64,000 bases of DNA from Roseomonas gilardii subsp. gilardii (GTDB taxonomy: Bacteria > Pseudomonadota > Alphaproteobacteria > Acetobacterales > Acetobacteraceae). Below the pieces are notes generated by a model. That model had not been told where the DNA came from. It was given only the letters and a program-made list of their open reading frames with translations, and ran no database searches. The position numbers and the translations under genes were made by a program. The stretch spans positions 3,774,501 through 3,838,500 of the forward strand of contig NZ_CP095554.1 of assembly GCF_023078375.1 (NCBI RefSeq), in the 5' to 3' direction. Below are positions 1,433 through 57,155 of the stretch, one piece after another. The stretch's first letter is position 1. Every line of letters begins with the position of its first letter.

Positions 1433-1794
1433 GTGACCCGTTCCATCATCCCGGCCGCCCTGCTGGCCCTTGCCGGCTTCCTCAGCCTGGGCGGACAGGC
1501 CGTCGCCCAGCCCGCCCCCGCGCCCACCCCGGCCCCGGCGGCGCCCGCGGCCCCCCCGCCCCGGAGGCCGGGCGGCACGAGACGAAGTTCGAGTATCTCG
1601 ACCAGTCGCTGGAGGCCCTGCTGAAGGATGGCTTCGAGGTCCGCACCTCGATCGGGCCGATGCTCTTCCTGTCCAAGCCCGGGGCGCTCGGCGCCGCCCG
1701 CACGGCGGCCTGCACCATCGGCCTGACCAACAGCATGATGGCCCGGCCGACCGAGATGAAGCACGCGCCCTCGACCTGCTTCTCGCTGAACTAG
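1433..1794 (+). CDS. Small exported protein, frame broken in a C run
   Basis: A GTG start at 1433 gives a signal peptide (basic start, hydrophobic LLALAGFLSLGG, cleavage likely after VAQ) and then a Pro/Ala linker. The frame is lost in a run of seven Cs at 1551-1557. Adding one C joins it to a second stretch (residue motif HETKFEYLDQSLEALLKDGFEV, ending CFSLN) that stops at 1794. The restored product would be about 120 residues with two cysteines in the mature part, likely periplasmic. I do not recognise the family. Because the downstream part keeps protein-like composition to its stop, I read the break as a one-base sequence deletion rather than decay. Confidence 0.55.
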
Positions 1795-1914
1795 GGCGGG
1801 AACCCGAAGCCGGGAGGGGTGAGGCCGGCTCGGCCGGGATTGGCGGAACGGCTCTTTTGTGCCAGTTTTGTTCTCATCCCTCCCGCCATCCTCGCCGATG
1901 GGCCGCCACAGCAC

Positions 1915-2559
1915 ATGAGCAACCGCGAAGCCCGCCGCCATCTGGCCCAGGACCCCGTCCTGGCGCCGGTGATCGCCCAGGTCGGCGCCTGCTGCCTGAA
2001 ACCCGTCAGCGGGCGCGAGCCCTATGAGGCGCTGGTCCGGGCCATCGCGCACCAGCAGGTGCATGGCCGGGCCGCCGAGGCGATGCTGAACCGGCTGATC
2101 GCCCTGGTGCCCGGCCACCCCTTCCCGCCCCCGGCCAGCATCCTGGCCCTGCCCGAGGGCGCGCTGCGCTCCTGCGGCTTTTCGGGCGCCAAGCAGGCTG
2201 CGATCCTGGACATCGCCCACAAATCCGCCGCCGGCTGGGTGCCCACCCGCCGCGCCGCCAGCCGCATGACGGACGAGGCGCTGATCGAGCGCCTGGTGGC
2301 GCTGCGCGGCGTCGGCCGCTGGACGGTGGAGATGCTGCTGATCTTCACCCTGGGCCGGCGCGACGTGCTGCCGGTGGATGATTTCGGGGTTCGGGAGGGC
2401 TATCGCCTCGCCGCCGGGATGGAAAGCCAGCCCCGCCCGCGCGACCTCGCCACGATCGGCGAGGCCTGGGCCCCCTTCCGCTCGGCCGCCTCCTGGTATC
2501 TCTGGCGCGCGGCGGACCTGCACAAGGCCGGCCAGTTCCAGATGCCCCAGGCCATCTGA
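1915..2559 (+). CDS. DNA-3-methyladenine glycosylase (AlkA-type, HhH-GPD)
   Basis: This is a base-excision repair glycosylase that removes alkylated purines. The ATG at 1915 gives about 214 residues. The HhH-GPD fold is visible: an early helix region with AIAHQQVHG (about residues 42-50), then the helix-hairpin-helix LRGVGRWTVEM (about 128-138), then the catalytic-aspartate segment LPVDDFGVREG (about 150). A longer in-frame start at 1819 would only add poorly conserved residues. It is the first of two AlkA-like genes in this window; the other begins at 27507 and has a different neighbourhood. Substrate range cannot be told from sequence alone. Confidence 0.85.
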   Translation: MSNREARRHLAQDPVLAPVIAQVGACCLKPVSGREPYEALVRAIAHQQVHGRAAEAMLNRLIALVPGHPFPPPASILALPEGALRSCGFSGAKQAAILDIAHKSAAGWVPTRRAASRMTDEALIERLVALRGVGRWTVEMLLIFTLGRRDVLPVDDFGVREGYRLAAGMESQPRPRDLATIGEAWAPFRSAASWYLWRAADLHKAGQFQMPQAI

Positions 2560-2654
2560 AGCCTGCGGACGGCTTCCGGTCCATGGCGTGACGCTTTCTT
2601 CATCCCGCCCCGCCCGCCATGGACGCGCCAGGAAGCCCCGTGCCAGAAGCGGGC

Positions 2655-3590
2655 ATGCCTTTGCTGACCCGCCGGAACCTGCTGGCCACCGGTGCCACGC
2701 TCCTGGCCACCGGCGCTTCCGGCTCCGCCTATGCCATGGTGGTGGAGCCTGGCTTCCGCCTCATCGTCCAGGAATACCGGATCCCCATGGCCAACTGGGG
2801 AAACCGGCCGGAACTGCTGATCTGCGCCACCGCCGACCTGCACAGTGGCGATCCCTGGATGCCGCTCAGCCGCGTGGAGCGCATCGTGGATCTGGCCAAC
2901 CGGCTGCAGCCCGACCTGCATGTGGTGCTGGGCGACCTGCCCGGCGCGCTGCGCGGGCGCTTCCGCCGTGCCTTCCCCGCCCCGCCGCCGGAGGAGACCG
3001 CTTGGCGCCTCGGCCGGCTGGAAGCGCCGATGGGCGTCTTCGCGGTGACGGGCAACCACGACTGGTGGGACGACCGGGAGGCCGTGCTGAACCGGCAAGG
3101 CCCGCCCCGGTCCGCCCGCGCCATGGCCGAGGCGGGGCTGCGCCTCCTGTCCAACGAGGCGACACGCCTGCCGCTCGGCCCGCCCGGGCGTGACGGTGGC
3201 GTCTGGCTGAGCGGCATCGACAGCCAGCAGGCCTTCTGGCCGCTGATGCACTGGGAGGGGGCGGACGACCTGCCCACCGCCCTGGCGCCCCTGGCGCTGG
3301 ACGATGCCCCGGCCATCCTGCTGGCGCATGAGCCCGACATCTTCCCGCGCGTCCCCGCCCGGGTCGGCCTGACCCTGTCCGGCCATACCCATGGCGGGCA
3401 GATCCGCATCCTGGGCTATTCCCCGATCGTGCCCTCACGCTATGGCCGCCGCTATGCCTATGGGCTGGTCGAGGAGGGGGGACGCCGGCTGGTCGTCTCC
3501 GGCGGGCTGGGCTGCAGCCGCTACCCGATCCGCTTCGGCGTGCCGCCCGAGCTCACCCTGGTCAGGCTCGGTCCTCCAGGAAAGGCGTGA
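2655..3590 (+). CDS. Metallophosphoesterase, calcineurin-like, exported
   Basis: The protein (about 311 residues from ATG 2655) starts with a twin-arginine-like signal, LLTRRNLLATGATLLATG, suggesting folded export. The phosphoesterase metal-binding blocks appear in order: TADLHSGD, LGDLPG, GNHDWWDD, LAHEPD and SGHTHGGQ. These match YkuE/YaeI-like membrane-associated phosphohydrolases. An ATG at 2619 is also in frame, but only the 2655 start has a purine-rich stretch (GAAGCGGG) before it and it puts the arginine pair in the usual place. Its last 29 bases overlap the end of the convergent esterase gene. Confidence 0.85.
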   Translation: MPLLTRRNLLATGATLLATGASGSAYAMVVEPGFRLIVQEYRIPMANWGNRPELLICATADLHSGDPWMPLSRVERIVDLANRLQPDLHVVLGDLPGALRGRFRRAFPAPPPEETAWRLGRLEAPMGVFAVTGNHDWWDDREAVLNRQGPPRSARAMAEAGLRLLSNEATRLPLGPPGRDGGVWLSGIDSQQAFWPLMHWEGADDLPTALAPLALDDAPAILLAHEPDIFPRVPARVGLTLSGHTHGGQIRILGYSPIVPSRYGRRYAYGLVEEGGRRLVVSGGLGCSRYPIRFGVPPELTLVRLGPPGKA

Positions 3591-4335: not shown

Positions 4336-4417
4336 CGGCTCTCCCCATCCCGGCAATGGCGCTGGTTCGCAGGCCATGGCCCAGCCGTCAAACCCGGAGC
4401 GGCGCCAGGCGCGGAGG

Positions 4418-5421
4418 TCAGGCCGCCACCTCCAGCATGATCTTGCCGATATGGGCGCTGCTCTCCATCAGCGCATGCGCCTCGGCCGCCTTCTCCAGCG
4501 GGAAGCGCGCGTGGATGCGCGGCGCGCAGCGCCCGGCGGCGAGCAGCGGCCAGACCTGCCCTTCCAGCGCCTGGGCAATGGCCCCCTTCTCCGCCGCCGT
4601 GCGCGGGCGCAGGGTGGAGCCGGTGACGGTCAGCCGCCGGACCATGATCGGCCGCAAATCCACCTCGCTGGCCTTCGGCCCGTCCAGGAAGGCGATCATC
4701 ACCAGGCGCCCGTCCTGCCCCAGGCAGCGCAGGTTGCGGGGGAAATAGGAGCCTCCGACCATGTCCAGGATCACGTCGATTCCTTTCCCGTCGGTCAGGC
4801 GCTTCACCTCCTCGACGAAATCCTGTTCGCGGTAGTTCCAGGCCGCCGCCGCGCCGAATCCGCGGCAGGCCGCGACCTTCTCCGCGCTGCCGGCGGTGGC
4901 CAGCATGCGCGCGCCGAAGGCCTCGCCGAGCTGGATCGCGGTGATGCCGATGCCGGAGGTGCCGCCATGCACCAGCGCCGTCTCGCCCGCCTTCAGCCGC
5001 CCCAGGCCGAAGAGGTTGTTCCAGACGGTGAAGAAGTTTTCCGGCAGCGCCGCCGCCTGCACCGCGTCATAGCCCTGCGGCCAGGGCAGGCACTGGGTCT
5101 CCGGCGCCGTCACGTATTCCGCATAGGCACCGCCATTGGTCAGGGCGCAGACCCGGTCCCCCACGCGCCAGCGGCCCACACCGGCGCCGCAGGCCACCAC
5201 CTCGCCGGCCGCTTCCAGCCCCAGCACCGGGCTGGCACCGGGCGGCGGCGGATAGCTGCCCTGGCGCTGCGCCACATCAGGGCGGTTCACCCCGGCCACC
5301 AGCACGCGGATCAGCACCTCCTCCGGCCGCGGCTTCGGCAGCGGCCCCTGGGCCACCCGCATCACCTCGGGGCCACCCCCTCGCCATGCTCGATGAAGCG
5401 CATGCTGTCCGGCAATGCCAT
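4418..5421 (-). CDS. NAD(P)H-quinone oxidoreductase (zinc-free MDR family), one apparent frameshift
   Basis: The protein belongs to the PIG3/QOR branch of medium-chain dehydrogenases, which reduce quinones with NAD(P)H. Visible signatures are GVNRPDVAQRQG, LGLEAAGEV, the nucleotide-binding HGGTSGIGITAIQL and a C-terminal HIGKIMLEV. There are no structural zinc cysteines. The first 15 or so codons (MALPDSMRFIEHGEG, from ATG 5421, preceded by AGGAGGAGG) lie in another frame. Adding one base to the five-C run at 5376-5380 joins them to GGPEVM and the rest, giving a normal length near 334 residues. It is divergent from the binding-protein gene at 5559. Confidence 0.82.
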
Positions 5422-5558
5422 GGCGGCCTCCTCCTTGTACGGCCCCAGGGTCGGGACCGGGGGCCGGAGCGTCAAGAGCGGCCGGGGTTGCGCTGGCGGG
5501 ACGCTTCCGCTTGCATGCCCGCCGGATTTTCCTCCAGCCGGGCCAGATTCCCCTTCCG

Positions 5559-6881: not shown

Positions 6882-6931
6882 ATGGGTTTCGCGGGGGTGG
6901 CACCTTGTCCCGCCCGCGGACCGGAAACGCC

Positions 6932-7906: not shown

Positions 7907-8034
7907 TCGTTCCTCCAGAATATCATCCGTCCCGGCTCCGGGCGCGGGATCCGATCCGGACAGATTACGCGTCAACCATGAAGAAACGTCAATCTGACTG
8001 ACAGGAAAGCTGCTCCGCGGGCGGGCACCGGCGG

Positions 8035-12069: not shown

Positions 12070-13479
12070 TCAGCCCTGCCGCTCGGCCTCGCAGAGCCGG
12101 TTCACCGCGGCCTCGTAGGCTTTCGCGTCGATCTTCCGCAGCGAATTCTCGCTCTGGTAACGCACGGTGCCGAAGATGGCCCGTTTCGCCCAGGGCCGGT
12201 CGTGCAGCCCATAGACCCACGCGACGTTGGTGAAGGAATTGGGGTCCCGCCCGTCGAGGAAGTAGCGGTTGTTCAGGCGCAGCGTCCGCGCGAAGCCTTC
12301 CTCGGGGCTGGGCGACCATTCGAGGATCTTCTTGCCCCAGTACATGCGCAGATGGTTGTGCATGTAGCCGGTCTCCCGCATCTCGGCCATCGCGACATTC
12401 CAGGCATGGTCGTGCGTCCGCCCTTCGGCGAGTTCCCGCTCGCTGTAATGATGCGTGCGCGGGTCCGCGCTGGCGGCGGCGAGCGTCCTGCGCGCCCATT
12501 CCGGCACGGCATGCCCATAGCGGTCGTAATGCGCCGTATAGTGCACATGGTTCATCGCCAGTTCGCGGCGGACCACCAGCTCCTCCAGATAGGCCGCCCG
12601 GTCCTCCTCGCTGCCTTTCCGCGCCGCGCGGATGGCGAGGACGATCTCCACCGGCGAGATCTGCCCGAAATGCAGGTAGGGGCTCATCTGCGAGGCCGCC
12701 GCCGCCTCGGGCCGGCCGCGCCCGGTGCCGTACCGGGTGAAAGGGCCGGCCAGCCAGGCCCGCAGGCGCCGCCTCGCCTCCGTCTCCCCACCGCGGAAGC
12801 GGCGCACCGGCGCCACGCCGCGGTCCAGCGCCATGCCGTCGAGCACGGCGCGCGGGTCGGCGATGTCCAGCCCCGGCAGCCGCAGTCCCGCGGCGCTGTG
12901 CCGGACCTTCCGCGCCGGCAGAGGGTGCAGGAAATCCTCCATCCGCCGCAGGAGCCTGGGCCGCAGGGTGCGGGCGGCATGCTCGTGATGGTCGGAGGCG
13001 ATCTCCACCGGCACCACCACATCGCCTTCGACCTGGAGGGTGCGGATCGTCACGGCCCCGCGGATCTCGGCATACCAGCGCTTCTGGATGGCGAGGTAGC
13101 CACGGTCCAGCACCAGCAGCGCCGCCTCCCGCGACAGGTCGGCCGCGATCTCCGCCGGGGATGCCTTGCGGATCACGAAGCCGATGCCGCGCTTCGCCAG
13201 CCCTTCCGCCGCATCGGCCAGCCCCTCCAGCAGGAAGGCATAGTGCCGGGCATTCGCCTCGGGGAAGCCGTTGGAGCCATCGAGCAGCCCGAAGCAGGCG
13301 ACCACCGGCAGGCCCAGCCGGTTCGCCTCCTCCACCGCCAGCTCCAGCGCCGGGTTGAAGCGCGACCGGTTGGCCTGCTGCAGCAGGCAGAGCACGTACC
13401 GGCCCCCGGTGGCGGGCGCAGTCGCCGGCCCCGCCCCGTTCAGCACCGTGACGCGCCCTTCCTCGATCCCGGATGCCAA
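12070..13479 (-). CDS. phr: Class II CPD photolyase
   Basis: This enzyme uses blue light and FAD to reverse cyclobutane pyrimidine dimers. It belongs to class II, the branch typical of plants, animals and some bacteria: diagnostic blocks are RRELAMNHVHY, THHYSERELAEGRTHDHAWN, MHNHLRMYWGKKILEW, LNNRYFLDGRDPNSFTNVAW and HDRPWAKRAIFGTVRY. The N-terminal domain (LLQQANRSRFNPALELAVEEAN) is the antenna-binding Rossmann part. I favour the TTG at 13479 because GGGGGAGG sits nine bases before it, giving 469 residues, the family length. An in-frame ATG at 13590 would add 37 residues of non-conserved sequence. The gene is divergent from tyrS. Confidence 0.9.
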   Translation of the reverse strand: MASGIEEGRVTVLNGAGPATAPATGGRYVLCLLQQANRSRFNPALELAVEEANRLGLPVVACFGLLDGSNGFPEANARHYAFLLEGLADAAEGLAKRGIGFVIRKASPAEIAADLSREAALLVLDRGYLAIQKRWYAEIRGAVTIRTLQVEGDVVVPVEIASDHHEHAARTLRPRLLRRMEDFLHPLPARKVRHSAAGLRLPGLDIADPRAVLDGMALDRGVAPVRRFRGGETEARRRLRAWLAGPFTRYGTGRGRPEAAAASQMSPYLHFGQISPVEIVLAIRAARKGSEEDRAAYLEELVVRRELAMNHVHYTAHYDRYGHAVPEWARRTLAAASADPRTHHYSERELAEGRTHDHAWNVAMAEMRETGYMHNHLRMYWGKKILEWSPSPEEGFARTLRLNNRYFLDGRDPNSFTNVAWVYGLHDRPWAKRAIFGTVRYQSENSLRKIDAKAYEAAVNRLCEAERQG

Positions 13480-13704
13480 GCCCCCGTCCTCCCCCGATCT
13501 CCGCCCGGATATCTGTGGCCGCCCGGGAAACCGGCAAGGCAGGCGGGCGGAGGCAGGCGCATGGCCAGGGCGCGGCGCAGAGGCCGCCACGCGGTCCGGT
13601 GATCCACGGCTTCCGTTCCCGACAGTCCCGTTCTTCGCAGCATGGTGTCACTGTGCTAACGCCCGGCCCACCGACCGGCACACTTCACTGCGGAACCCCG
13701 CCAG

Positions 13705-15273: not shown

Positions 15274-18200
15274 CGCTCCCGGGGCGGCGCATCGCTGCCG
15301 AACAGGTTCCGCAGCATCCCCGGCGCCAGCATGGAGAGCGGGTTCACGGTGATCTGCGGGTCGCTCAGCGTGCCGGTGGCACGGAAGGTCGCGGCCAGCA
15401 GCCCGCCGCCCGGCTCGGCGCTGAACAGCCGCCCGACCAGGGGCAGCCGCCCGGCCAGGATGTTCAGCAGATAGGACGGCACGATCGTCCCCTCCAGTTC
15501 CAGCCGCCCGTCCCGGCGCATCACCCGCCCCTTGGCGGTGGCGCCGAGCGAGGCCGAGTTGAGCCGCACATCCTCCAGCCCCAGTGCTTCCCGCGTCAGG
15601 GCGAAGGGGGCGTGCAGGCGGCTCACGCGCAGTCCCGGCCCGGTCAGCGCCTCCGGGATGCCGTAGAGGGAGAGCGCCTGCAGCAGCTTGCCCAGCCGCG
15701 CTCTCCCGCGCAGGCCGAAATTCTCCAGTTCCGCCTCGCCCAGCAGTGGCGAGGCCGGCGTGTCGGCGGCCCAGTGCCCCTGGACCCGCAGCCGGCCATC
15801 CTGGACATCCCCCGTCGTGCCGGTGAGCCGCAGCAGCAGCCCCAGATCCGCCACCCGCACCGACAGGTCCCGCCCGCCGCCGGCCCGTGGGGTGACCCTG
15901 GCGGCGAAGGCCTCCTGCCCGCCGAAGCGGCCGGAGGCCTGCATCTGCCGCAGCACACCCTGCGCATCGTGCCGGATCCGGGCCTCGACCCGCTCGAAGG
16001 GGCCGTCCGAGGTCAGCACCTGCCCCAGCGCGATCTCGGCATCGAAGCCCGGCAAGGCGCTGCGCTCCGGCGCATCCTTCCCCCCTCCTTGTCTCCGGAC
16101 CCGCTCAGGAAATCCGGATCGGCGCCGCGCAGGTCCAGCACCGGGCCGCGCACCACGATCCGCCAGAGCCCGTCCGGCCCTTCGGGGAAGCCCAGCTCGC
16201 CGCTCACGCGCGAGGCCCCGGCCCGCCCTTCGGCCAGGGTCAGCCGGGTGATCCGGGAACCGGGCGCGAATTCCGCCGCGCCGCGCAGCATCAGGTCCGG
16301 CGCCTCGATCCGCAGCCCCTCGATGCCGCGCAGCCCGCCGTCGCGCAGGCGCATGGACATCTCCGCCCGCGCCGCCAGGCCGGGCGCCTTGCGCCAGTTG
16401 AGCGGCGCCAGGGAAAGCCGCGCCTGGGCGAGATCCGCCTTCGCCTCCACCTGCGTATCGGCGCCGCGCCGCTGCTCGAACTGGGCACTGACGGTGGCCT
16501 GGCCGCCGATCCGGTCGCCCAGGATGTCCAGCCGCGTGCCGCGCAGCGCCGCCAGTTCCGCCGGACCTTCGACCTGCCCCTTCACCACCAGTTGCCCCGG
16601 CGGGCCGTCGCGGAAATCCACCTGCATCCCCATCCGCGCCGCGCGCAGCGGGCCGAGATCGGCGGTGCCGTCGAGGCGCATCCCCGCCTCGGTCAGGTCC
16701 AGCGTGGCCCGGCCCCGCCGCAGCGACTGGTCGAGCAGCAGATCCGGCAGGGCCGCATCCGTCACCTGCCCCTTCACCGCCACGGCGATGCGCTCCACCG
16801 GCAGGTCGGCCAACAGCGGGAAGGCAAGGCGCATCGTGACATTCGCCTTGCCGCCCGCCCGCGACAGATCGACCGGCACGGTCTGCAACAGGTGCAGGCG
16901 CGGATGGTCCACCACCCGGAGCATGTCGTTCAGCGGCCCGGTGACGCGGCCCGAGATCTCCGTCTTCTCCTGGCCGATATCGAGGTCGTAGAGCCGGACC
17001 CGCACCTCCGAGGCGGAGAGCGCGGTGCCCTGCTGCCGCCCACCCTGCCCTTCCACCAGGATCTCCGCCGGGGACAGGAAGCGTATCGTGCCGCTCACAT
17101 GCTCCACCGGCGGGACGGGGCGCAGCCAGTGCACCGTCGCGTCCTCCACCGTCAGCAGGCCGGTCATCGTTTCCAGCTTCGGCACGCCGCCATTCGCCGG
17201 CAGCAGGCCGCCGAACTCCCAGTGCCCGTCCCGCGCCGTGCCGGCGGTCAGGTTCTCCACGATCCAGGAACGCCCGCCCGGCGCCACCGAGGCGGGCCAG
17301 TAGAGCGCCAGGTCGGGCAGGAAGGTCCGGTCCACCCCCAGGCCGAGCCGCCAGCGCCAGCCCTCGGCGTGGTGCTGTGCCTCGCCCTGCGCGCTGGCCA
17401 CCGGCGCGATGCCGCGTGCCCCGGCTCCTTCGGCCAGGGCGAGACGGAAGCGTTGCAGCGTCACGCGATCCGGCCCGGCCTGCAGCGCCGCCTCGATGCC
17501 GCGGAAGCCGATGCGCGTGCCGTCCGGCTGCGCCACCTGCCCGGCGCCCAGATGCAGGTCCAACCCGGCGTCGGGTATGTTCCATTGCAGCAGGTCGAGG
17601 CCCGAGAAGTGCAGCGCGATCCTGCTTTCCGCCCCGGCCACCGGCGTTGGGGCCGGGGCGGCGGGCGGGGAGGAGCCGCCAGCGCCCCCGGGTTTCGCGC
17701 CCTGGTCCGGGGCCTTGACGCCCCCCGCCGCACCTGAACGCGCCGCGCCCGGGGCCGGAGCTGGGACCGGAGCTGGGACCGGGGCCGCCCGGCCGGGAGG
17801 CGGGGATGGCGCCGCACCGAAGGACACCCGCTCCCCGGTCGCGGCGCTCAGGGCCACGCGCCCCAGCGTCACCTCGGCCTCGCCGGAGGACCGCCCCCGC
17901 GCATCGGGTTCCCCGAGGCTCGCCGAGAGCCGCAGCGCCGGCATCGCGGCCATGGCGGGGGCAGGGGGCGCCGGTGCCGTGCTTCCGGCTGCCACCGGCC
18001 CTGGCGCTCCCGGCCCTGGCGCTCCCGGCCCTGGCGCTCCCGGCTCGGGCATGGCGGCGCCCACCCGCACCTTCCCAAGGCCCGGCATCTCCAGTTCGCC
18101 CTGCCGGAGCCCGATCTCGACATGACCCCAGGGGCGGCGCTCGGCATCCACGCCATCCAGCCGCAGGGAGAGGGTCGCCGCATCCGGGCCGCCGCCGATC

Positions 18201-19234
18201 ACCGCCCGCCCCCCTTCCGGCAGGGCGAGCACCCCGGCGCCCGCCCGCATGTCGAGCTGCCCCCGGACCCCGTCGCGGCTGTAGCGGAGCCGTGCCTCCA
18301 GCGCGACCGGCGCGTCCAGCCCGGCCAGCGGCGCCAGCACCGGCAGTTCCGCCGCGATCTCGGCCGGGCGCATCGCGGGCAGCGAGGCGCGCAGCTCCAG
18401 CGTGGCGGGCGCCGCCCCGATGTGGCCGAAGAAGCGCAGGCTGCCCTCTGCGGCCCCGACCCGCAGGCTGCCACCGCCCCGGAAGCCCATATTCTCCCCC
18501 TGACGGTCGCGGCGCAGCAGCAGGTCGCCGCCCTGCATCACCGCTCGCAGGGCGCCGTCATGGTCGCGCACCTCCAGCCGGGCCGCGTTCACCCGTACCT
18601 CGTGCAGCGCCGCCAGCCGGTCGCGCGCGCCGCTCCGGCGCAACAGGTATTGCAGCGGGTTCTCGTCCGGCAGGGGCCGCGCCGGCCCACGCGAGCCTTC
18701 CCCGGCCGCCGCGCCGCGCCCGTCCCGGCTGGAGCTCGCCCCGTTCCTCGCCCGGGGCAGGTTCGGCAGCCCGTCCGGCCCCACCTCCAGCACCAGCAGG
18801 GGACCGTCCACCGTCAGCGTCTCGGGCACATAGGCGCCCCGGAGCAGGAGGTTCCGCGCCGGAATCTGCGCTCCGATCTCCGGCAGATCCAGCCGCGCCT
18901 TGCCCGAGGCATCCGGCAGTTGCAGCCCGTAGAGCCGCAGCGACAGCGCCGGCGAGCCCGCCGAGTCGACCGGCGGCAGCCAGCTCAGGGCGGCGCCGCC
19001 GATCCGCAGGTCCATCCCGTCGCCCGAGGCCAGTTGCTCCAGCGCCGTGGCCAGCATCGGCACGGGCAGCGGCCCCGCCTGCAGCCGCCAGAGCAGGGCG
19101 CAGGCCACCAGCCCGCCCGCCGCCGCCAGCGTCATCGCCGCATGGGTCAGCGACACCAGCGCCGGAAGCAGCCCCCGCCGGATCAGCCGCCCCAGGGCCC
19201 GGCGCATCCGGCGCCCCGGGCGGGGGCCGGGCAT
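15270..19234 (-). CDS. AsmA/YhdP-like giant envelope protein, one apparent frameshift
   Basis: This gene encodes a protein of about 1,320 residues once one base is restored in the C run at 16080-16085. An N-terminal membrane helix (about residues 24-48, LTHAAMTLAAAGGLVACALLW) anchors a long, beta-rich repetitive body. The middle has a Pro/Gly/Ala-rich linker with short tandem repeats. The C-terminal part has FDAEIALGQVL, ELENFGLRGRARLGKLLQALSLYGIPEAL and VNPLSMLAPGMLRNLF, typical of the YhdP/DUF3971 branch of AsmA-like proteins. Such proteins bridge inner and outer membrane and are implicated in phospholipid transport. Starts at 19327 (TTG) or 19234 (ATG) are possible. It is divergent from glnE. 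Confidence 0.82.
17997..18041. repeat. 15-bp x 3 minisatellite inside the AsmA-like gene
   Basis: Three identical copies of GGCCCTGGCGCTCCC occur head to tail. On the coding (minus) strand they give repeated Gly-Ala-Pro-Gly-Pro in the linker. Because the unit is a multiple of three, copy-number change would lengthen or shorten the linker without breaking the frame. Confidence 0.85.
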
Positions 19235-19320
19235 CTCCGCCCGTGCCGCGGGGTCGGCGGCATCGCCCGCCGGAACCGTCGTGACTTGACCGCTCCGCCG
19301 CGTCACGGGACGAAAGGCCG

Positions 19321-22275
19321 ATGACAACGCCCGGGATGAAACGCCCCCCGCCCCCTTCGATCCGGCGGCGGCGGAACGGCTGATCGCCAGCTTCGCGGAA
19401 CGCGGGGCGGCGGAACGTGCCTATGCCACCGGCGAGGGCCAGGCCCTGCTCGCCGCGCTCGGCGGCAACAGCCCTTTCCTGTCCGACCTCGCGCTGCGGG
19501 AGGCGCAGACCCTGCTGCGCATGGCTGAGCGCGGGCCGGAGGCGGCGCTGGACACGGCGCTCGACCCGGTGGGCCGCGTCCTGCCCGATGCCGGGCGCGC
19601 CCAGCTCGGCGCCGCGCTGCGCCGGGCCAAGCGTCAGGGCGCGCTGATCGTGGCCGCCGCCGACCTCGCCGGGCTCTGGGGACTCGACCAGGTGACGGAG
19701 GCGCTGTCCCGCCTCGCCGACACGACGCTGGAGGCGGCGACCAACCAATTGCTGCGCGAGGCGGCGGCGCGCGGGAGCTTCGCCCGGCCCGCAACGGGCG
19801 CGGCGCCGGCATCACCGTGCTCGGCATGGGCAAGCTCGGCGCGCGGGAGCTGAACTACTCCTCCGACGTGGACCTGATGATCCTCTTCGACCCGGAGGCG
19901 ATGCCGGAGCAGGACCGCGCCCAGTCCGTCGCCGTGCGCTTCGCCCGCGACCTGGTGAAGCTGATGGAGGAGCGCACCGAGGAAGGCTATGTCTTCCGCA
20001 CCGATCTCCGCCTGCGCCCCGACGGCGCCGCTCAGCCGCTCGCGGTCAGCATCCCGGCCTCCGTCTCCTATTACGGCAGCATGGGGCAGAACTGGGAAAG
20101 GGCGGCGATGACCAAGGCCCGTCCGGTGGCCGGGGACAAGGTGCTGGGTCAGAGCTTCCTGGATGAGATCCGTCCCTTCGTGTGGCGGCGGCACCTGGAT
20201 TTCGCGATGATCGCGGACATCCATTCCATCAAGCGGCAGATCCACGCGACGCACGGCCATCGTGGGGCGGGGACCGAAATAGCGGTCGCGGGCCATGACG
20301 TGAAGCTCGGCCGTGGCGGCATCCGCGAGATCGAGTTCACGGTCCAGGTGCTGGAGCTGATCTGGGGCGGGCGCGACCCCAGCCTGCGCGACCCGACCAC
20401 CCTGGGCGCTCTGGCGGCCCTGGCCGGGGCCGGGCGGCTCGACCGCCGCGCGGCGGTGGACCTGGCCGATGCCTATACCTTCCTGCGGACCATCGAGCAC
20501 CGCCTGCAGATGGTGGCGGACCGGCAGACGCACCGGTTGCCGGAGGATGAGGACGGGTTGCGCCGCATCGCCGCCTTCAGCGGCTTCAGCAGCCTGGATG
20601 CCTTCTCCGCCGCGCTCACCGCCTGTTTCAACCGCGTGGCGCATCACTACGGACGCCTGTTCGAGAGCGCGCCCGACCTGAGCGGCGAGGGCGGCAACCT
20701 CGTCTTCACCGGCACGGAGGACGATCCGGAGACCACGCGCACGCTGCGGGAGATGGGCTTCACCAACCCGGCCGGCATCTCCGCCATGATCCGCGGCTGG
20801 CACCATGGCCACCGCCGCGCCACCCGCAGCGAGCGCGCGCGCGAGCTGCTGACGCTCCTCATGCCGACCCTCCTGGCCGCCTTCGCGCGGCAGCGCGAGC
20901 CCGACGCGGCGCTGGCCCGCTTCGACACGCTACTGGAAAAGCTGCCGACCGGCGTGCAGTTGCTCAGCCTCTTCCTGCGCAACCCGCACCTGCTGGAACG
21001 GGTGGCCGGCATCCTGGGCGCCGCGCCGGCGCTGGCCGACCACCTCGCCCGCCATCCCTCGGCGCTGGAAGGGCTGCTGTCCGGCGGCGCGGGCTCGGCC
21101 GCCGCCGCCCTGCCCGCCCTGGTCGGCGCGGCGCGGCACTACGAGGAGGTGCTGGAGGGTGCCCGCCGCCTCGTCACCGAGGGGCGTTTCGAGATCGACG
21201 CCGATGCGCTGGAGGGGCTGATCGACGCCGATGCCGCCGGGCTGGCGCGCGCCGACCTCGCCGATGCCGCCATCGCCGCGCTGCTGCCGGAGGTGGTGCG
21301 CGATTTCTCGGCCCGCTACGGCCGGATCCGCGGCGGTTCCATGGCCGTCGTCGCCATGGGCAAGCTCGGCGGGCGGGAGATGCAGCCGGGCTCGGACCTG
21401 GACCTGATCCTGATCTACGACCACCCGCCGGAGGTGCAGGACAGCAGCGGCGGGGCGCGGAGCCTGCCGGCCCCCACCTGGTTCGCCCGGCTCGCCGCGC
21501 AGTTCATCGCCGCCCTCACCGCCCCGGGGGCCGAGGGGCGGCTCTACGAGGTGGACATGCGGCTGCGCCCTTCCGGCAACAAGGGGCCCATGGCCACCGG
21601 CCTGGCGGGCTTCGAGCGCTACCACACCGAAGGGGCCTGGAGCTGGGAGCGCATGGCCCTCACCCGCGCCCGCCCGCTGGCGGGGCCGCCGGCGCTGCGG
21701 CGACGCATCGCCGCCACCGTGCGCCAGGCCCTGGCCCTGCATGCCGGGCCGAAGGTCCTCTCCGATGCGCGCGACATGCGCGCCCGGATGCTGCGCGACC
21801 TGCCGCCCGAGGGGCCCTGGGATGTGAAGGCCATGCGCGGCGGGCTGGTGGAGGTGGAGTTCATCGCCCAGGCCCTGCAATGCGCCCATGCCGCCAGCCA
21901 TCCGCGCATCCTGGCGACGACGACGCGCGAGGCGCTGGCGCGGCTGGCCAAGGCGCGGCTGCTGCCGCCCGAGGATGCCGCCGCCCTGATCCGCGCCGAC
22001 CGCTTCTGGCGCAGCATCCAGGCCATGCTGCGCCTCACCGTCGGGCGGCCGCGGACCGAGGCCCTGCCCCCCGCCGCCAGCACGGCGCTGCTGCGCATCT
22101 GCACGCCCTACATGACGGATGGCGCGGCCGACTCCGCCGCTCCGGTTGACCTCGCCGCGCTGCGCGGGGAGATGCAGAGGACCGCCGAGACGGTCCGGAC
22201 TCTCTTCGAGCGCCATCTCGGCCCCCTCCCCCACCGGGCGGAGGCACATCCCATCGGGAAAGGACCACGCCGTGA
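19321..22275 (+). CDS. glnE: Glutamine synthetase adenylyltransferase/adenylyl-removase, three apparent frameshifts
   Basis: GlnE adds AMP to, and removes it from, glutamine synthetase to tune nitrogen assimilation. Both nucleotidyltransferase domains are visible: GMGKLGARELNYSSDVDLM in the N-terminal adenylyl-removase half and AMGKLGGREMQPGSDLDLIL in the C-terminal adenylyl-transferase half, each with its GSD-type metal site. The frame is broken near 19344-19355, near 19788-19790 and near 22222-22232, always in C runs and always cured by one added base. With these restored the product is about 985 residues, and its stop (TGA 22273-22275) overlaps the GTG start of bcp, a natural coupling. Without the last correction the frame would run on through bcp. 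Confidence 0.88.
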
Positions 22276-22733
22276 TCGAAGCGGGAATGGACGCGCCGCC
22301 CTTCACCATGCCGGCCAGCGGCGGCCGCACGGTCAGCAAGGCGGCCCTCGGTGGGAAGCCCTTCCTGCTCTACTTCTATCCGAAGGCCGACACCTCCGGC
22401 TGCACCCAGCAGGCCTGCGGCATCCAGGAGGCCCTGCCCGCCCTGGGCAAGCTCGGGCTGACGGTGATCGGTGTCTCGCCCGACCCGATGAAGGCGATCG
22501 AGAAATTCGCCGCGAAGTACAACCTCACCTTCCCGCTCGCCTCGGATGCCGAGCATGCGGTGGCCGAGAGCTATGGGGTCTGGGTCGAGAAATCGATGTA
22601 CGGGCGCAAGTACATGGGCATGGAGCGCACGAGCTTCCTGATCGGCCCGGACGGCAAGGTCGCGCAGGTCTGGCGCAAGGTGAAGCCGGCCGAGCACGCC
22701 GCCCTGGTGCGCGAGGCTGCGGCGAAGCTCTGA
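22272..22733 (+). CDS. bcp: Thiol peroxidase of the Bcp/PrxQ family
   Basis: This 153-residue peroxiredoxin reduces peroxides in the cytosol. YFYPKADTSGCTQQACGIQEA carries the peroxidatic cysteine and, five residues later, the resolving cysteine of the atypical two-Cys type. GVSPDPMKAIEKFAAKYNLTFPLASD follows, as usual for Bcp. The GTG at 22272 overlaps the corrected glnE stop by four bases (GTGA) and has AGGA upstream. Length is normal for the family. Confidence 0.93.
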   Translation: MIEAGMDAPPFTMPASGGRTVSKAALGGKPFLLYFYPKADTSGCTQQACGIQEALPALGKLGLTVIGVSPDPMKAIEKFAAKYNLTFPLASDAEHAVAESYGVWVEKSMYGRKYMGMERTSFLIGPDGKVAQVWRKVKPAEHAALVREAAAKL

Positions 22734-22748
22734 GGCGCCGGCACGGCA

Positions 22749-22773
22749 CGGGGAGCGGCGCAGCCCCTCCCCG
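22749..22773. terminator. Possible bidirectional terminator
   Basis: CGGGGAG (22749-22755) and CTCCCCG (22767-22773) can form a perfect 7-bp stem with an 11-base loop. It sits exactly between the convergent bcp and YqaA-like genes. There is no strong T run on either side, so this is tentative. Confidence 0.35.
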
Positions 22774-22778
22774 GCCTC

Positions 22779-23357
22779 TCAGATGTAGCGCAGCGCCAGC
22801 ACGCCGCCGACGATCGCCAGGGCCGTCGCGCCCGCGATCAGGTTCAGCCGCTTCTCGATGAACTCCCGCGCCGGCGGGCCATAGGCGCGCAGCAGCCAGG
22901 CCAGCATGTAGAAGCGTGCGCCGCGCGTGACGACGCTGCACACGAAGAAGATCGGCAGCGAGAAATGCGCCGCGCCGGCGGCGATGGTGACGATCTTGTA
23001 GGGGATCGGCGTCAGCCCCTTGATCAGGATCACCGCCGCGCCCCAGCGTTCGAACCAGGCGCCGAAGGTCTGCAGCGCGTCGGCATGGCCATAGGCGGCC
23101 AGCACCGGCAGCGCCACCGCCTCGAAGAGATAGGCGCCGATGGCATAGCCCAGCAGCCCGCCGATCACCGAGGTGACGGTGCAGATGAAGGCGTAGTGGT
23201 AGGCCCGGTCCGGCCGCGCCAGGCACATGGGGATGAGCATGGCGTCGGGCGGGATGGGGAAGAAGCTGCTTTCCGCGAAGGACACCGCCCCCAGGGCCGC
23301 CGGGGCCCGGGGATGCGCGGAAAGGGCGATGATCCAGTTGTAGAGGGCGCGGAGCAT
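22779..23357 (-). CDS. YqaA-type VTT/DedA-like membrane protein
   Basis: This inner-membrane protein of about 193 residues belongs to the small YqaA branch of the DedA/VTT family. Features are AESSFFPIPPDAMLIPM near the start, GGLLGYAIGAYLFE, and ILIKGLTPIPYKIVTIAAG, where the Gly-x-x-Pro-x-P motif forms the re-entrant loop. Three or four further hydrophobic helices follow. Relatives are implicated in lipid flipping and membrane homeostasis. I chose ATG 23357 (MLRALYNW) over an in-frame ATG at 23393, as homologues start this way. Confidence 0.85.
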   Translation of the reverse strand: MLRALYNWIIALSAHPRAPAALGAVSFAESSFFPIPPDAMLIPMCLARPDRAYHYAFICTVTSVIGGLLGYAIGAYLFEAVALPVLAAYGHADALQTFGAWFERWGAAVILIKGLTPIPYKIVTIAAGAAHFSLPIFFVCSVVTRGARFYMLAWLLRAYGPPAREFIEKRLNLIAGATALAIVGGVLALRYI

Positions 23358-23434
23358 GACCCGCGGCATCCCATGCCGCGATGCAACAAGCAAGTTACAA
23401 ATCGCGGATTCATCTTAAAAAATGGACAGCGCTC

Positions 23435-24493
23435 TCAGAAAGCGTAACGGATGCGGCAATAGGGCATCACCTCACCCAGGATGGCGGTGAAGCGCTGGAG
23501 CAGCCTCCCCTTCACCCCATGCCGGTAGCGCAGGTTGCGCGCCCCGTTCTGGCTCAGCTTCTCCTCCTGCCAGCGCGGCTGCCAGAGCAGTTCCTCGGCC
23601 CTCGGATGCCAGGCGAGGTTCACCTCGTGCAGTCCGGCGCTGTGGGTCAGCATGATCACCTCCGCCGCCAGCCCCTGCTTCGCCGCCTCCGGCAGCCGGC
23701 CGTCGATCTGCCGGAACAACTCGCGCCATTCCGCCTCCCAGCCCTCATGCACCACCACGGGCGAGAAGTTCAGGTGCAGTTCGTAGCCGGCCTGGAACAG
23801 CTCGCCCGCGAAGCCGATCCGCTCCGCCACCGGGGAGGTCCGCACATCCAGCAGCCGCGCCCGCGCGTCCGGCATCAGGGAGATCCGCACCCGCGTCCGG
23901 CCGCGCGGGTCGTAGTCCAGGATCGCCGGATTCACGAATTTCGTGGCGAAGGAGCCCTTGGCGTTCGGCAGACCGCGGAACAGGGCCACGAGGTCGCGGA
24001 CGTTGCCGGAGATCGAGGCATCCACCGACAGGTCGCCATTCTCTCCGATGTCATAGACCCAGTCGCGCGCATCCACCTGGTTGGGCTCCAGCTTCATGCC
24101 CTGCCGCGCAGCGTGGCGGGCGATGAAGCCGGTGATCGCCTCGATGTTGGTGAAGACGGTCACCGGGTTCGCATGGCCCTTGCGCCGCGCCACGTAGCAA
24201 TAGGCGCAGGCCATGGCGCAGCCGTTGGAGACCGAGGGTGCGATGAAATCGGCGCTGCGCCCGTTGGGCCGGCAGACCAGGGTCTTCTTGACGCCCAGCA
24301 CCAGCACGTCGCGCTTGCTGGCCAGCCAGTCCTCCGCGCTCCCCTCCCGCAATTCCGGGATGGACTGGTGCGAGGCCACCTCCACCTGCCGCGCCTCCGG
24401 GAAGCGCGCCAGGATCTCGCGCCCTCTCCCGCCTTCTCGCACGGCGGGTTCCAGGAAGATGGTTTGGGGATCGAGTAGGTAGCCGGGCAGCAT
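23435..24493 (-). CDS. Spore-photoproduct-lyase-like radical SAM protein
   Basis: This protein of about 352 residues carries the radical SAM motif as NGCAMACAYCYVARRKG, a CxxxCxxC cluster site with the following Tyr, as in the SPL family. Other family phrases are LGVKKTLVCRPNGRSADFI, FTNIEAITGFI and ALFRGLPNAKGSFATKFVN. SPL proteins repair the spore photoproduct of UV-damaged DNA in Bacillus. The alphaproteobacterial group has no spores and its substrate is not established. The start at ATG 24493 (MLPGYLLDPQTIFLEP) matches homologues; 24544 is also possible. Confidence 0.82.
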   Translation of the reverse strand: MLPGYLLDPQTIFLEPAVREGGRGREILARFPEARQVEVASHQSIPELREGSAEDWLASKRDVLVLGVKKTLVCRPNGRSADFIAPSVSNGCAMACAYCYVARRKGHANPVTVFTNIEAITGFIARHAARQGMKLEPNQVDARDWVYDIGENGDLSVDASISGNVRDLVALFRGLPNAKGSFATKFVNPAILDYDPRGRTRVRISLMPDARARLLDVRTSPVAERIGFAGELFQAGYELHLNFSPVVVHEGWEAEWRELFRQIDGRLPEAAKQGLAAEVIMLTHSAGLHEVNLAWHPRAEELLWQPRWQEEKLSQNGARNLRYRHGVKGRLLQRFTAILGEVMPYCRIRYAF

Positions 24494-24605
24494 GCCATTC
24501 CACGCCTTGGTCCCCGCAAGTGGCGATGCGGCGGCGCTCCGCAAGCGGTTTTCCAGGCACTGCTGGCCACCCCGGGGGAGGCCCGCCTCCCCCCGCCCCC
24601 CTCCG

Positions 24606-29730: not shown

Positions 29731-31550
29731 GTGCCACACCACACGCCGCTCATCGCGACGATCAGTGTCGGCCTTGTGCTGGCTTTCGCCTTCGGCCTCC
29801 TGGCCCACCGGCTGAGGATTTCTCCGCTGGTGGGCTATCTCCTGGCCGGTGTCGCTGTCGGTCCCTTCACCCCCGGCTTCGTCGCCGACGCGGAACTCGC
29901 CGCGGAACTCGCCGAGATCGGCGTCATCCTGCTGATGTTCGCGGTCGGGCTGCACTTCTCCCTCAAGGATCTGATGTCGGTGCGCAACATCGCCGTGCCC
30001 GGCGCGGTGGTGCAGATCGCGGTTGCCACGCTGATGGGCATGGCGCTCGCCTGGGGGCTGGGCTGGAGCATCCCGGCCGGCATGGTCTTCGGCCTCGCCC
30101 TTTCCGTCGCCAGCACCGTGGTGCTGACCCGCGCCCTGGGCGAAAGGCGGCTGCTGGAAACCGAGCGCGGGCGGATCGCGGTCGGCTGGCTGGTGGTGGA
30201 GGATCTGGTGATGGTGGTGGCGCTGGTGCTGCTGCCGGTGGTCGGCCAGATCTCCGCCGGGGGCACCGTCTCGATCGGCGAGGTGGCCACGATCCTGGGC
30301 ATCACCCTGGCGAAGGTCTCCGCCTTCGTCGCGGTGATGCTGCTGGTGGGCCGCCGGGTCATCCCGATGATCATGCACTACGTCGCCCATACCGGCTCGC
30401 GGGAGTTGTTCCGGCTTGCCGTCTATGCGCTGGCGCTCGGCGTGGCGGCGGGGGCGGCCTCGCTCTTCGATGTCTCCTTCGCCCTTGGCGCCTTCTTCGC
30501 CGGCATGGTGATGGCGGAAAGCCAGCTTTCCCAGCGCGCGACGGAGGAGGCGCTGCCGCTGCGCGATGCCTTCGCGGTGCTGTTCTTCGTCTCGGTCGGC
30601 ATGCTGTTCGACCCGACGGTGCTGGTGGAGGCGCCCTGGGCGGTGCTCGGCACCATCGCCATCATCCTGCTGGGCAAGTCCGTCGCCGCCTGGCTGATCG
30701 TGCGCGCCTTCGGCCATCCCAACGGCACCGCCGTCACCATCTCCGCCAGCCTGGCCCAGATCGGCGAGTTCTCCTTCATCCTGGCCGGCCTCGGCGTCAG
30801 CCTGCACCTGCTGCCGGAGGAAGGGCGCGACCTGATCCTGGCCGGCGCCATCCTCTCGATCTTCCTGAACCCCTTCATCTTCGCCCTGGCAGAGCGCCGC
30901 CCCGCCCGCCGCTATCCGAAGGAGGAGGTGGCTGCCGCGGCCGCCGCCGATGCCGCCGCGGCGATGGAGCGGGTGCAGGAGGAGATCCCCGGCCCCGGCG
31001 AGCAGACGGCCACCACGCTCGCCGACCACGACGTGCTGATCGGCTATGGCCGCGTCGGCCGGATCGTCGGCAGTGGCCTGCTGGAGGCGGGCCGGCCGCT
31101 CCTGGTCTTCGACGACCGGGAGGATTCGCTGGAGCGCGCCCGGGCCGCCGGGGCGGAGGTGATCGAGGGCAATGCCGCCGATCCGCAGGTCCTCGCCCTG
31201 GGCAACATCGCCGGCGCCCGGCGCCTCTTCGTCACCGTGCCGGAGGCTTTCGAGGCCGGACAGGTGGTGGAGCAGGCCCGCGCCCTGAACCCTGATCTGG
31301 AGATCGTGGCCCGGGCGCATTCCGACGCCACGGTGGAGCACCTGTCCCGGCTCGGCGCGATCTCACGGTGATGGGGGAGCGCGAGATCGCACGGCGCATG
31401 CTGGAGGCCGCCCTGCCGGAGGATGCCGAACTCGCCGCCGCCGAACGGGCGGCCGGGTTGCTGCCCACCCCGCGCCAGGACGTGATCCAGACGCTGGACG
31501 AGGCGCTGGATCAGGCCCCGGACCGGACCGCGAGCCAGGCAGCCGGGTGA
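29731..31550 (+). CDS. KefB/YbaL-type cation:proton antiporter with TrkA-N domain, one apparent frameshift
   Basis: This CPA2-family antiporter exchanges potassium or other monovalent cations for protons. About twelve membrane helices fill residues 5-390 (for example LVGYLLAGVAVGPFTPGF, LALSVASTVVLTRALGERRL and the FALGAFFAGMVMAES segment). After an Ala/Glu-rich linker comes a TrkA-N nucleotide-binding domain (DVLIGYGRVGRIVGSGLLEAG). The frame stops at 31371, but adding one base near 31356-31359 turns LGAISR-stop into LGADLTVMGEREIARRMLE, the expected YbaL C-terminus, which then runs to 31550. The restored length is about 606 residues. Confidence 0.9.
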
Positions 31551-43509: not shown

Positions 43510-45110
43510 ATGAAGCGCCGCGACCTCGCTTCCGCCTCCCTTGCCCTTCTGGGTTCCCCGCTTCTCGCCCGCCATGCCCTGGCCCAGGGTGCCGTTTCCG
43601 GCGAGAGCAAGCCGCTGGTCATGGCCATCGGCGGCGCGATCCAGTCGATCGACCCGCATTTCTTCTCCGCGACGCCCAACCACACCGTCGCGAACCACAT
43701 CTTCAGCCGCCTGATGGAACGGGACCGCAAGGGCAATCCGATCCCCGGCCTGGCCCTGTCCTGGACGCCGGTCTCGGAGACCGAGTGGGAGTTCAAGCTC
43801 CGCCCTGGGGTGAAGTGGCATGACGGCCAGGATTTCACCGCCGACGACGCGATCTTCACCTTCGCCCGCGCCCGGGACGTGCCCAACAGCCCCGGCGGCC
43901 TCGGGCCCTACCTCTCCTCCATCGCCGAGGCGAAGGCGCCCGACCCGCTGACGCTCCGCGTCATCACCCGGGGCCCGGCACCTCTCCTGCCGCGCCAGTT
44001 GCAGCAGGTCCATATCGTCTCCCGCCATGTCGGCGAGGGCGCGACCACGGACCAGTACAACAGTGGCAAGGCCGCCATCGGCACCGGCCCCTACAAGTTC
44101 GTCCGCTACGTGCCCGGGGACCGGCTGGAGCTGGCCCGCAACGAGGAATACTGGGGCACGAAGCCGGAATGGACCCAGGTGACGCTGCGGCAGATCACCA
44201 ATCCCGGGGCGCGCGTCGCGGCGCTGCTGTCCGGCGATGTCGGCATCATCGACACGCCGCCGGCCGGCGCCTGCCGCGCCTGCGCAATTCCCCCCAGGTT
44301 GTGGTGGAGACGGCGCCCGGCCTGCGCCTGATCTATCTGGGCCCGGACTTCTCGCACGCCACCAACCCGCCCGAGGTGACGACCAAGGACGGCAAGCCCT
44401 TCGACAAGAGCCCGCTCCTCGACCAGCGGGTGCGCCGGGCGCTGAACATCGCCATCAACCGCCAGGCCCTGGCCGACCGGGTGATGCAGGGCATGGCGAC
44501 CCCCACCGGGCAGTGGATGCCGCAGGGCAGCTTCGGCTATGCCCCCGGCGTGCCGGTGCCCCCCTATGCGCCGGAGGATGCGCGGAAGCTGCTGGCCGAG
44601 GCCGGCTTCCCCGAGGGGTTCCGCATCACCCTCCGCACCCCCAACGACCGCTATCCGAACGATGCCGAGACGGCGCAGGCGGTGGCGCAGATGTGGACGC
44701 GGATCGGGGTGCAGACCCGCATCGAGGCCATGCCCTGGAGTGCCTATGTCCCCCGCGCCACGCGGCAGGAATACTCCATGTGCCTCTGGGGCTGGTCGAG
44801 CAGCACCGGCGAGGGCAGCAACGTCATGAACAGCGTGCTCAGCACCTATAACAGGGAGAAGGGCCGCGGTTCCTCCAATGACGGCCGCTATTCCAACCCG
44901 GAATTCGACGCCCTGACCGACGAGGTGCTGTCCACCATCGACGATGCGAAGCGCGAGGCCCTGATCCAGAAGGGCGTGGCCATGGCGATGGGCGACGTGG
45001 CGCTGATCCCGCTCGTCATCCTCACCAATGCCTGGGCGACGCGGAAGGGGCTGACCTATACGGCCGGGTCCAGTGAAATGACCCTGGCCATGGATGTGCG
45101 TTCCGCCTGA
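43510..45110 (+). CDS. ABC transporter substrate-binding protein, peptide type (SBP_bac_5), one apparent frameshift
   Basis: This periplasmic protein of about 533 residues belongs to the oligopeptide/nickel-binding family. A signal peptide (MKRRDLASASLALLGSPLLARHALAQ) precedes the fold; SIDPHFFSATPNHTVANHIFSRLM, LRPGVKWHDGQDFTADDAIFT, IGTGPYKFVRYVPGDRLEL and later VRRALNIAINRQALADRVM are all diagnostic. The frame is lost near 44270; one added base gives PAGALPRLRNSPQVVVE and continues to the normal C-terminus at 45110. No permease genes adjoin it, so it is a third orphan receptor in the window. An ATG at 43498 is also in frame. Confidence 0.88.
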
Positions 45111-45298: not shown

Positions 45299-45876
45299 AT
45301 GAATTCTTCGTTGCTGCTGGTCGCCGTCCATTTTCTGCCCGAAATTTCCCGCGCCGTGGCACTTGGCCAGGAAAGCGAAACGGCATGCCAGGTGTCGCAC
45401 GCGGTCCGCGCCGCCGCCGGCACCGGCAATCCCTTTCTGGCCCTGCGACGGATCGAGGCCGATCTGAACCGCGCGGCCGCCCTGCGCATCCGCCTCGCCT
45501 CGATCGCCTGCGACCGGGAGATCGCCCTGGCCGAGATGCGCCACCGGACCCGGAACGGGCAGGACGGCGGGCGCCATCCCTTCCCGGGCCGTGCCCATGC
45601 CCTCGGGCTGGCGATGACCCTCTGCGCAGGCTTCCTGTCGATCTTCGCCCTCGGCTTCCGGTGGAGCCGGACGGCGCCCGCCTCCCCGCGCCTGGCCGGA
45701 CCTGTTGCCAGTTGCCTGCTGCTTGCCGCCATGCTGGTCGCCGCCCTGGGGATCACGACCCGGCCCGAGAGCCCGGGGCAGTGGCGGTGCTGGCCCCGGC
45801 GCCGGAATCGGCCGATGCATCGGCCCTGCCATCGGAGCCGGTGCCGCAGGCGGCCGATCTCATGCGGCCGGCCTGA
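45299..45876 (+). CDS. Two-helix membrane protein of unknown function, one apparent frameshift
   Basis: The product starts MNSSLLLVAVHFLPEIS, has a helical, charged middle and two hydrophobic helices (LGLAMTLCAGFLSIFALGF and AGPVASCLLLAAMLVAALGI). The frame after the second helix changes composition abruptly. Adding one G to the four-G run at 45775-45778 gives SPGAVAVLAPAPESADASALPSEPVPQ and a stop at 45876, a credible disordered tail. The restored protein is about 192 residues. I recognise no family. Preceded by GGGGGAAGGA and an AT-rich leader. Confidence 0.6.
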
Positions 45877-51639: not shown

Positions 51640-51668
51640 CGCGGCAGATCCTCCCGTCCCGTCAGGGC

Positions 51669-55322: not shown

Positions 55323-55488
55323 CGTCAGATCCCCATCCTGCAACCCCAGGAGCCGGAAGCCCCGGGCCGCCTCGCGGCGCACGATGCGCAGCGCCCCGCC
55401 GCGCGGCAACCCGGCCCATCCCGGGAGAGGGCCGGAAGCGGCAGCGCATGCCGTGCGTTTGCCTTCCGTGCAAGCTCAGGAGCATCGC

Positions 55489-56217
55489 ATGGCCCGGCAA
55501 ACCGCCTACGAACTGTTCTACTGGCCTGGCCTGCCGGGGCGCGGCGAATTCGTCCGCCTGGCCCTGGAAGCCGCCGGGGCCTCCTATACCGACCATGCCC
55601 GGCACCCCGACGGCCTGGCGGCGATGCAGGCGCTGCTGACGGACGTGGCCCAGCCGCACCCGCCCTTCGCGGCGCCCTTCCTGCGCGACGGCCCGCTGCT
55701 GATCGGCCAGACCCCGGCCATCCTGCTGCATCTGGGGAACAAGCACGGGCTGGCGCCGGAGGCGGAGGAGGGCCGCCTCTGGTGCCACCAGATCCAGCTC
55801 ACCATCGCCGACCTGGTGACGGAGGCGCACGACAGCCATCACCCGGTCGCCAGCTCCCTCTACTACGAGGACCAGAAGCCCGAGGCCGCCCGGCGCGCGA
55901 AGGACTTCCGCGACAGCCGGATGCCGAAGTTCCTTGGCTGGTTCGAGCGTATCCTGGCCGCCAACCCCGCCGGCCCCGCCCATCTGGTGGATCGGGCGCT
56001 GAGCTATGCCGACCTTTCGCTGTTCCAGACCGTGGAGGGGCTGCGCTACGCCTTCCCCCGTGCCAGCGCGCGGGCCTTGCGGAAGACGCCGCATGTCGCG
56101 GCCCTGGCCGCCTCGGTGGCGGGATGGCCGCGCATCGCCGCCTACCTCGCCAGCCCGCGCCGCCAGCCCTTCAACCAGAACGGCATCTTCCGCCACTACC
56201 CCGAGCTGGACGGATAG
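55489..56217 (+). CDS. Glutathione S-transferase-like protein
   Basis: This 242-residue protein has a thioredoxin-like N-terminal domain (YELFYWPGLPGRGEFVRLALEAAG, then PFLRDGPLLIGQTPAILLHLGNKHGL with the cis-proline and Ser-binding site) and an all-helical C-terminal domain (IADLVTEAHDSHHPV, LSYADLSLFQTVEGLRYAFPRA). The PGLPGRGE sequence matches the sigma/prostaglandin-synthase-like GST group. Likely role is glutathione conjugation or peroxide detoxification. It is divergent from the hydantoinase gene. Confidence 0.88.
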   Translation: MARQTAYELFYWPGLPGRGEFVRLALEAAGASYTDHARHPDGLAAMQALLTDVAQPHPPFAAPFLRDGPLLIGQTPAILLHLGNKHGLAPEAEEGRLWCHQIQLTIADLVTEAHDSHHPVASSLYYEDQKPEAARRAKDFRDSRMPKFLGWFERILAANPAGPAHLVDRALSYADLSLFQTVEGLRYAFPRASARALRKTPHVAALAASVAGWPRIAAYLASPRRQPFNQNGIFRHYPELDG

Positions 56218-56358
56218 GGCGGCCGGCCCACGCCCCGGCCCCCGTTGCCTTTCCGGATCGGAAATATCGGCGATCGAATGCCTCGCAAGGCACGTCGCCC
56301 AGAATACCGCCACGTGCTATGTCCATGTTGAGAGCTGGGATCGCGCGGGTCGTCGGAT

Positions 56359-57155
56359 TTGGGTTTCTGGGGCAAGATCATCGGCAGTGCGCTCGGCTTC
56401 GCGGTCGGCGGCCCCTTCGGCGCCATGCTCGGCGCCTCGCTGGGCCATGCCGCCGACGAGGGCGCGCTGCGCGGCGCCCTGCCGGGCGGCGCCAACCTCG
56501 CGGGGCTGCTCGGCTCGCGCGAAACGATCTTCGCCATCTCCGTCGTGGTGCTGTCCGCCAAGCTTGCGAAATGCGACGGGCCGGTGCGGCGCGCGGAGAT
56601 CGACGCCTTCAAGATGCAGTTCCGCATCCCGCCCGAGAACATGAAGGACGTGGGCGAGCTCTTCGACCGGGCCCGCGACAGCGCCGAGGGCTACGAGCCC
56701 TATGCCCAGAAGCTGGGCGAGGCCTTCGCCGGTGAGAAGGGCATGCTGGAGGATGTGCTGGCCGCCCTCGCCGCATCGCCACGGTGGACGGGCCGCTGAA
56801 CCAGGCGGAATACCGCTTCCTGGGCAATGTCCACCGCCTCCTCGCCCTCGACCTTCCGGCCTGGGAGCGCGCCAGCCAGGGCCGTCCGCGCCATTTCGGC
56901 CCGGAAGGCTCCTATCAGGGTGGCGCCCGTGCCCCGGCGGTGAGCGAGGGGCCCGACCCCTATGCCACGCTGGGCCTGGCCCCTGGCGCCAGCAACGAGG
57001 CGGTGCGCGCCGCCTGGCGCGGCCTGATCCGGGAGAACCACCCGGATGCCCTCGCCGCCCGCGGCATGTCCGCGGAGCTGGTGCGGCGGGCCACCACACG
57101 CATGGCCGAAATCAACGCGGCCTGGGACCGGATCAAGCGGGAGCGCGGCCTTTGA
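56359..57155 (+). CDS. DjlA-like protein (TerB domain plus J domain), one apparent frameshift
   Basis: The first part (from TTG 56359) has a Gly/Ala membrane-like segment (IGSALGFAVGGPFGAMLGASLG) and a TerB-like domain (VVLSAKLAKCDGPVRRAEIDAFK). The frame is lost near 56771; one added C gives LARIATVDGPLNQAEYRFLGNVHRLL and leads to a C-terminal J domain (DPYATLGLAPGASNEAVRAAWR) with the HPD motif in ENHPDALAAR. The restored protein is about 265 residues, as in alphaproteobacterial DjlA-type co-chaperones. The stop overlaps the amidase start (TTGA), so they form a unit. Confidence 0.82.

Follow-up and report, generated by a model that had tools for sequence, protein, structure and literature searches.

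The ten reading-frame breaks in the 64,000-nucleotide stretch of DNA analyzed here (the window) are, with a probability of about 95%, consensus errors remaining in the assembly, in most cases the loss of a single base. The living cell presumably carries unbroken frames, and each set of two or three gene pieces is best read as a single gene. The errors would be of the type that remains after long-read sequencing when accurate polishing is insufficient; the G+C content of the window is approximately 72%. This explanation had been proposed in an earlier note made from the letters of the window, and it was supported by split copies of ftsZ and murF, an excess of breaks over two relatives, a bias toward deletions, and selection that was not relaxed in the broken genes. 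The result is a quality flag on this genome, as gene counts and pseudogene lists taken from it would be wrong. It would be equally wrong to claim loss or recoding of glnE, ftsZ, or murF in this species.

The source genome (G000) comprised 4.62 Mb in two contigs, and the window corresponded to C1:3774501-3838500. The genome completeness was 97.58%, which fell inside the 96 to 100 span of 12 same-genus genomes; thus, this value by itself was no mark of poor assembly. Two relatives, G003 (an assembly of five contigs) and G004 (R. mucosa), were 92% and 90% identical in DNA to the window region, respectively. R. mucosa is a close relative of the source genome, and R. mucosa ATCC BAA-692 was the nearest named relative found. 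For the comparison, 324 kb of the source genome, consisting of the window, 80 kb on each side, and five distant 20-kb stretches, was set against 338 kb of G003 and 246 kb of G004. Several observations were made on the layout of these sequences. A complete class A RNase P RNA was located inside the window. The segment corresponding to positions 15278-24547, carrying the YhdP-like gene and glnE, was inverted relative to its neighbors in R. mucosa, but not in the window or G003; this may be a real inversion or an effect of the draft assembly. Between approximately 11775 and 13590, no alignment exceeding 80% identity and 300 bases was obtained in the compared parts of the two relatives, and a 506-aa open frame lay within this stretch on the minus strand (12070-13590). 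The second contig has a length of 423 kb; when a 20-kb portion of it was compared with plasmids, no match over 80% of the portion was obtained, the best among the matches listed covering 23%.

The ten sites were checked in two ways, namely, by base-by-base alignment to both relatives and by three-frame translation placed beside both. In the translations, at all ten sites, the protein of the relatives was matched in one frame up to the site and continued in a different frame beyond it, and G003 and R. mucosa each stayed in a single frame throughout. In the alignments, both relatives carried one extra base at eight sites (5378, 19350, 19775, 22234, 31360, 44270, 45769, and 56771). The site at 16080 lay in a variable linker with a net difference of +8 or +11, equivalent to -1 modulo 3, and the break at 1551, in a variable Pro/Ala linker, was taken from the translations. 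Accordingly, all ten breaks described in the earlier note are present in the deposited sequence, and its count of eight affected genes, glnE with three breaks and seven others, was correct (Table 1). The aligned positions differed slightly from those first given at four sites, being 19775 for 19788, 22232 for 22222, 31359 for 31357, and 45769 for 45775. At four more window positions (561, 1423, 29724, and 43508), the sequence differed by one base from one relative or both; these positions seem to coincide with or precede start codons and did not enter the break count.

Table 1. Frame breaks in the window and the genes affected. Positions are in window numbering; gene names were taken from the intact proteins of the relatives or from the window pieces.
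Feature	Position	Strand	Remark
Small protein, no family match (133 aa in G003)	1545..1555	+	Break in Pro/Ala linker at C7 run
PIG3-type quinone oxidoreductase (zinc-binding dehydrogenase)	5368..5382	-	Break after ~16 residues
YhdP-like protein	16075..16100	-	Break in variable linker with C6 run
glnE region, bifunctional glutamine synthetase adenylyltransferase	19325..22290	+	Split here
glnE, break 1 of 3	19338..19352	+	Near N-terminus; both relatives have one more C in the run
glnE, break 2 of 3	19770..19793	+	No long run
glnE, break 3 of 3	22222..22236	+	Within ~last 14 residues, beside C5 runs
YbaL-type K+ efflux transporter	31353..31362	+	Break near C-terminus, no long run
Family 5 extracellular solute-binding protein	44265..44275	+	Break, no long run
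Small protein, no family match (192 aa in G003)	45765..45785	+	Frame break
DjlA-like co-chaperone (TerB and DnaJ domains)	56765..56775	+	Break, no long run

The strongest evidence for assembly error lies outside the coordinates of the earlier note, in the split genes ftsZ and murF (named by NCBIfam TIGR00065 and TIGR01143, respectively). The only ftsZ matches in the genome were two parts in different frames, covering residues 2-125 and 122-538, which shared 97% and 96% identity with the G003 protein. They were located at G000:C1:3850911-3852522, approximately 76.4-78.0 kb in window numbering. The break was a two-base difference from both relatives, in the glycine-rich tubulin signature. Similarly, murF was found just downstream of the window (G000:C1:3839088-3840505, from approximately 64.6 kb in window numbering) as two parts, residues 1-175 in one frame and residues 169-468 in another, and the only other murF match in the genome was a distinct Mur ligase at 35%. 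A second copy of either gene was searched for in the genome, and none was found. Both genes are essential, and a growing bacterium without ftsZ or murF is not credible. As these single-copy genes were split in the same way as the others, the breaks were read as assembly error rather than biology. If the breaks were true, the bacterium would be dividing with neither ftsZ nor murF intact, which would be very surprising, and the reading of the breaks as real was therefore rejected. The earlier note had argued in part from glnE, as essential to nitrogen control. This argument is weak on its own, since proteobacteria do not in general require glnE for viability, and it is ftsZ and murF that carry the case. 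The G003 glnE product was an NCBIfam equivalog at 990 bits. In all 11 same-genus loci returned, glnE was read in a single frame with no internal stop, at least from residue 7 to residue 970, where the twelfth same-genus genome gave no locus and a duplicate contig was counted once.

The excess of breaks over the relatives was determined in genes whose frame and third-position substitution bias were conserved between two genomes, with the third genome being checked for breaks. With the first reference, 173, 170, and 168 kb of coding sequence was tested in the source genome, G003, and R. mucosa, respectively. Twelve strict lasting breaks were found in the source genome, compared with none in either relative (P about 2e-6). 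Before filtering, the candidates numbered 22, 2, and 4, from which the strict filter removed 10, 2, and 4, respectively. Ten of the 22 raw candidates of the source genome were in the window (five strict) and 12 outside it (seven strict). The strict breaks occurred in the window, its 80-kb flanks, and two of the five distant 20-kb stretches, the other three showing weaker candidates. Extrapolation by length suggests a few hundred breaks genome-wide. Seven of the ten window sites appeared in the raw list, and five passed the strict filter (16080, 19775, 31359, 44270, and 56771), while 19344 and 45769 failed it. The remaining three (1551, 5376, and 22232) rested on the three-frame translations and were presumably missing from the list owing to positions near gene ends or to genes outside the tested set. 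A looser tracking of frames gave 24 and 27 internal breaks by the two references in the source genome, 12 and 9 in G003, and 10 and 10 in R. mucosa; since many of these calls came from wrong starts, it was replaced by the strict test.

The direction of the differences was also unlike that in the relatives. One-base differences unique to the source genome comprised 42 deletions and 12 insertions, compared with 15 deletions and 27 insertions for both relatives combined (Fisher P 5e-5). The uniform direction claimed earlier thus held for the ten window sites but not beyond them, as shown by the 12 insertions and by +1 and -2 events among the breaks of this genome. The statement that the breaks were mostly in C or G runs was borne out as an enrichment only. 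With four sites taken at their shifted positions, five of the ten were within 6 nt of a C/G run of at least 5, compared with 4.3% of window positions (binomial P 3e-5), and the other five were not at such runs. Moreover, the extra C or G predicted in the relatives at each site was not seen. Among the eight sites other than 1551 and 16080, only 19344 showed a plain long run in the relatives that was one shorter in the source genome. A run of at least 5 in at least one relative was beside three of the 11 measurable strict breaks (of 12). When C/G runs of at least 6 agreed on by the other two genomes were considered, 4 of 10 were one shorter in the source genome, compared with none of 6 in either G003 or R. 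mucosa. The overall frequency of C/G runs was no lower in the source genome than in the relatives, which counts against assembly error. Run-length error is therefore one component only of the breaks. A motif beyond runs was sought among 47 deletion contexts, in which C/G runs were prominent along with some purine-rich words; the latter may come from intergenic sites. Substitutions unique to the source genome numbered 7/150 within 6 nt of the 12 strict breaks, 26/582 at 7-30 nt, and 61/2094 at 31-120 nt; this rise was small, and nothing was built on it. The half of the window sites lying away from runs of at least 5 also counts against assembly error, being less run-bound than the published nanopore profile.

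Mutation at one or a few non-essential sites (e.g., 45769, 22232, or 1551) may be real and recent. It is unlikely that a few window breaks outside long runs, such as those at 31359 in the YbaL-type transporter and at 45769, are true recent losses of the strain standing among the errors. That the breaks in general are true, in a lineage losing genes by natural mutation, is very improbable. Such pseudogenes would agree with the presence of the breaks in the sequence and their absence from the other two genomes compared, and several of the affected genes are dispensable in many bacteria. However, single-copy ftsZ and murF were also broken, and deletions exceeded insertions in this genome and not in its relatives. 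In-frame stops, counted unfiltered with two references, were not raised to match the breaks (9 and 13 in the source genome, 5 and 10 in G003, and 11 and 7 in R. mucosa). In addition, the third-position share of mismatches in ten broken genes was 0.680 between G003 and the source genome and 0.685 between G003 and R. mucosa; from the side of R. mucosa, it was 0.660 to the source genome and 0.670 to G003 (10 genes). Selection on the broken genes is thus not relaxed, although a very recent break would leave this share unchanged. For ftsZ and murF, even very recent breaks are excluded by the need for intact genes.

Programmed or slippery frameshifting, in which ribosomes or polymerase switch frame and full proteins are made, has a negligible chance of accounting for the breaks. 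Five sites were at C runs, and a genuine programmed-frameshift element, an ALIL pseudoknot, was present elsewhere in the genome, but half of the sites had no long run. Moreover, the frame transitions were found in neither relative at any of the ten sites, and the single open frame of glnE in all 11 loci is likewise at odds with recoding. Judged from these sequence comparisons, programmed frameshifting can be regarded as excluded for practical purposes. The ALIL pseudoknot itself, an insertion-sequence element, was located at L053:12448-12564 within a 1.3-kb stretch matching R. mucosa at 100%. Equally hard to credit is a natural mutator strain in which slippage mutations have recently accumulated in a burst. 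The length loss at 4 of 10 C/G runs of at least 6 could point to it, but in the relatives most strict breaks did not fall at long runs, and a cell with ftsZ and murF broken would not survive.

The preferred reading, assembly error, can be compared with systems described in the literature. In the nanopore assembly of Kastor, indels made up 69% of the errors and were mostly false deletions, with a strong association between the deletion errors and runs of 2-8 bases (PMC12007338). In the work on Homopolish, systematic homopolymer indels shifted reading frames and produced an excess of pseudogenes (PMC8011154). The source genome resembled these long-read assemblies in its excess of small indels in genes, its majority of deletions, the over-representation of runs, and the intact genes of its relatives. 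It differed from the published profile in that half of the window sites were outside runs of at least 5, and from the Kastor assembly, in which A and T runs led, in that C and G runs led in this genome of richer G+C. Conserved frame transitions have served to detect recoding, with the candidates being grouped by conserved position and direction (PMC3711429). As in genes with programmed frameshifts, such as dnaX, prfB, and those of transposases, two frames jointly gave a family protein; unlike in such genes, the transitions were not conserved in any relative examined. The breaks are almost certainly an artefact of a known kind and not new biology.
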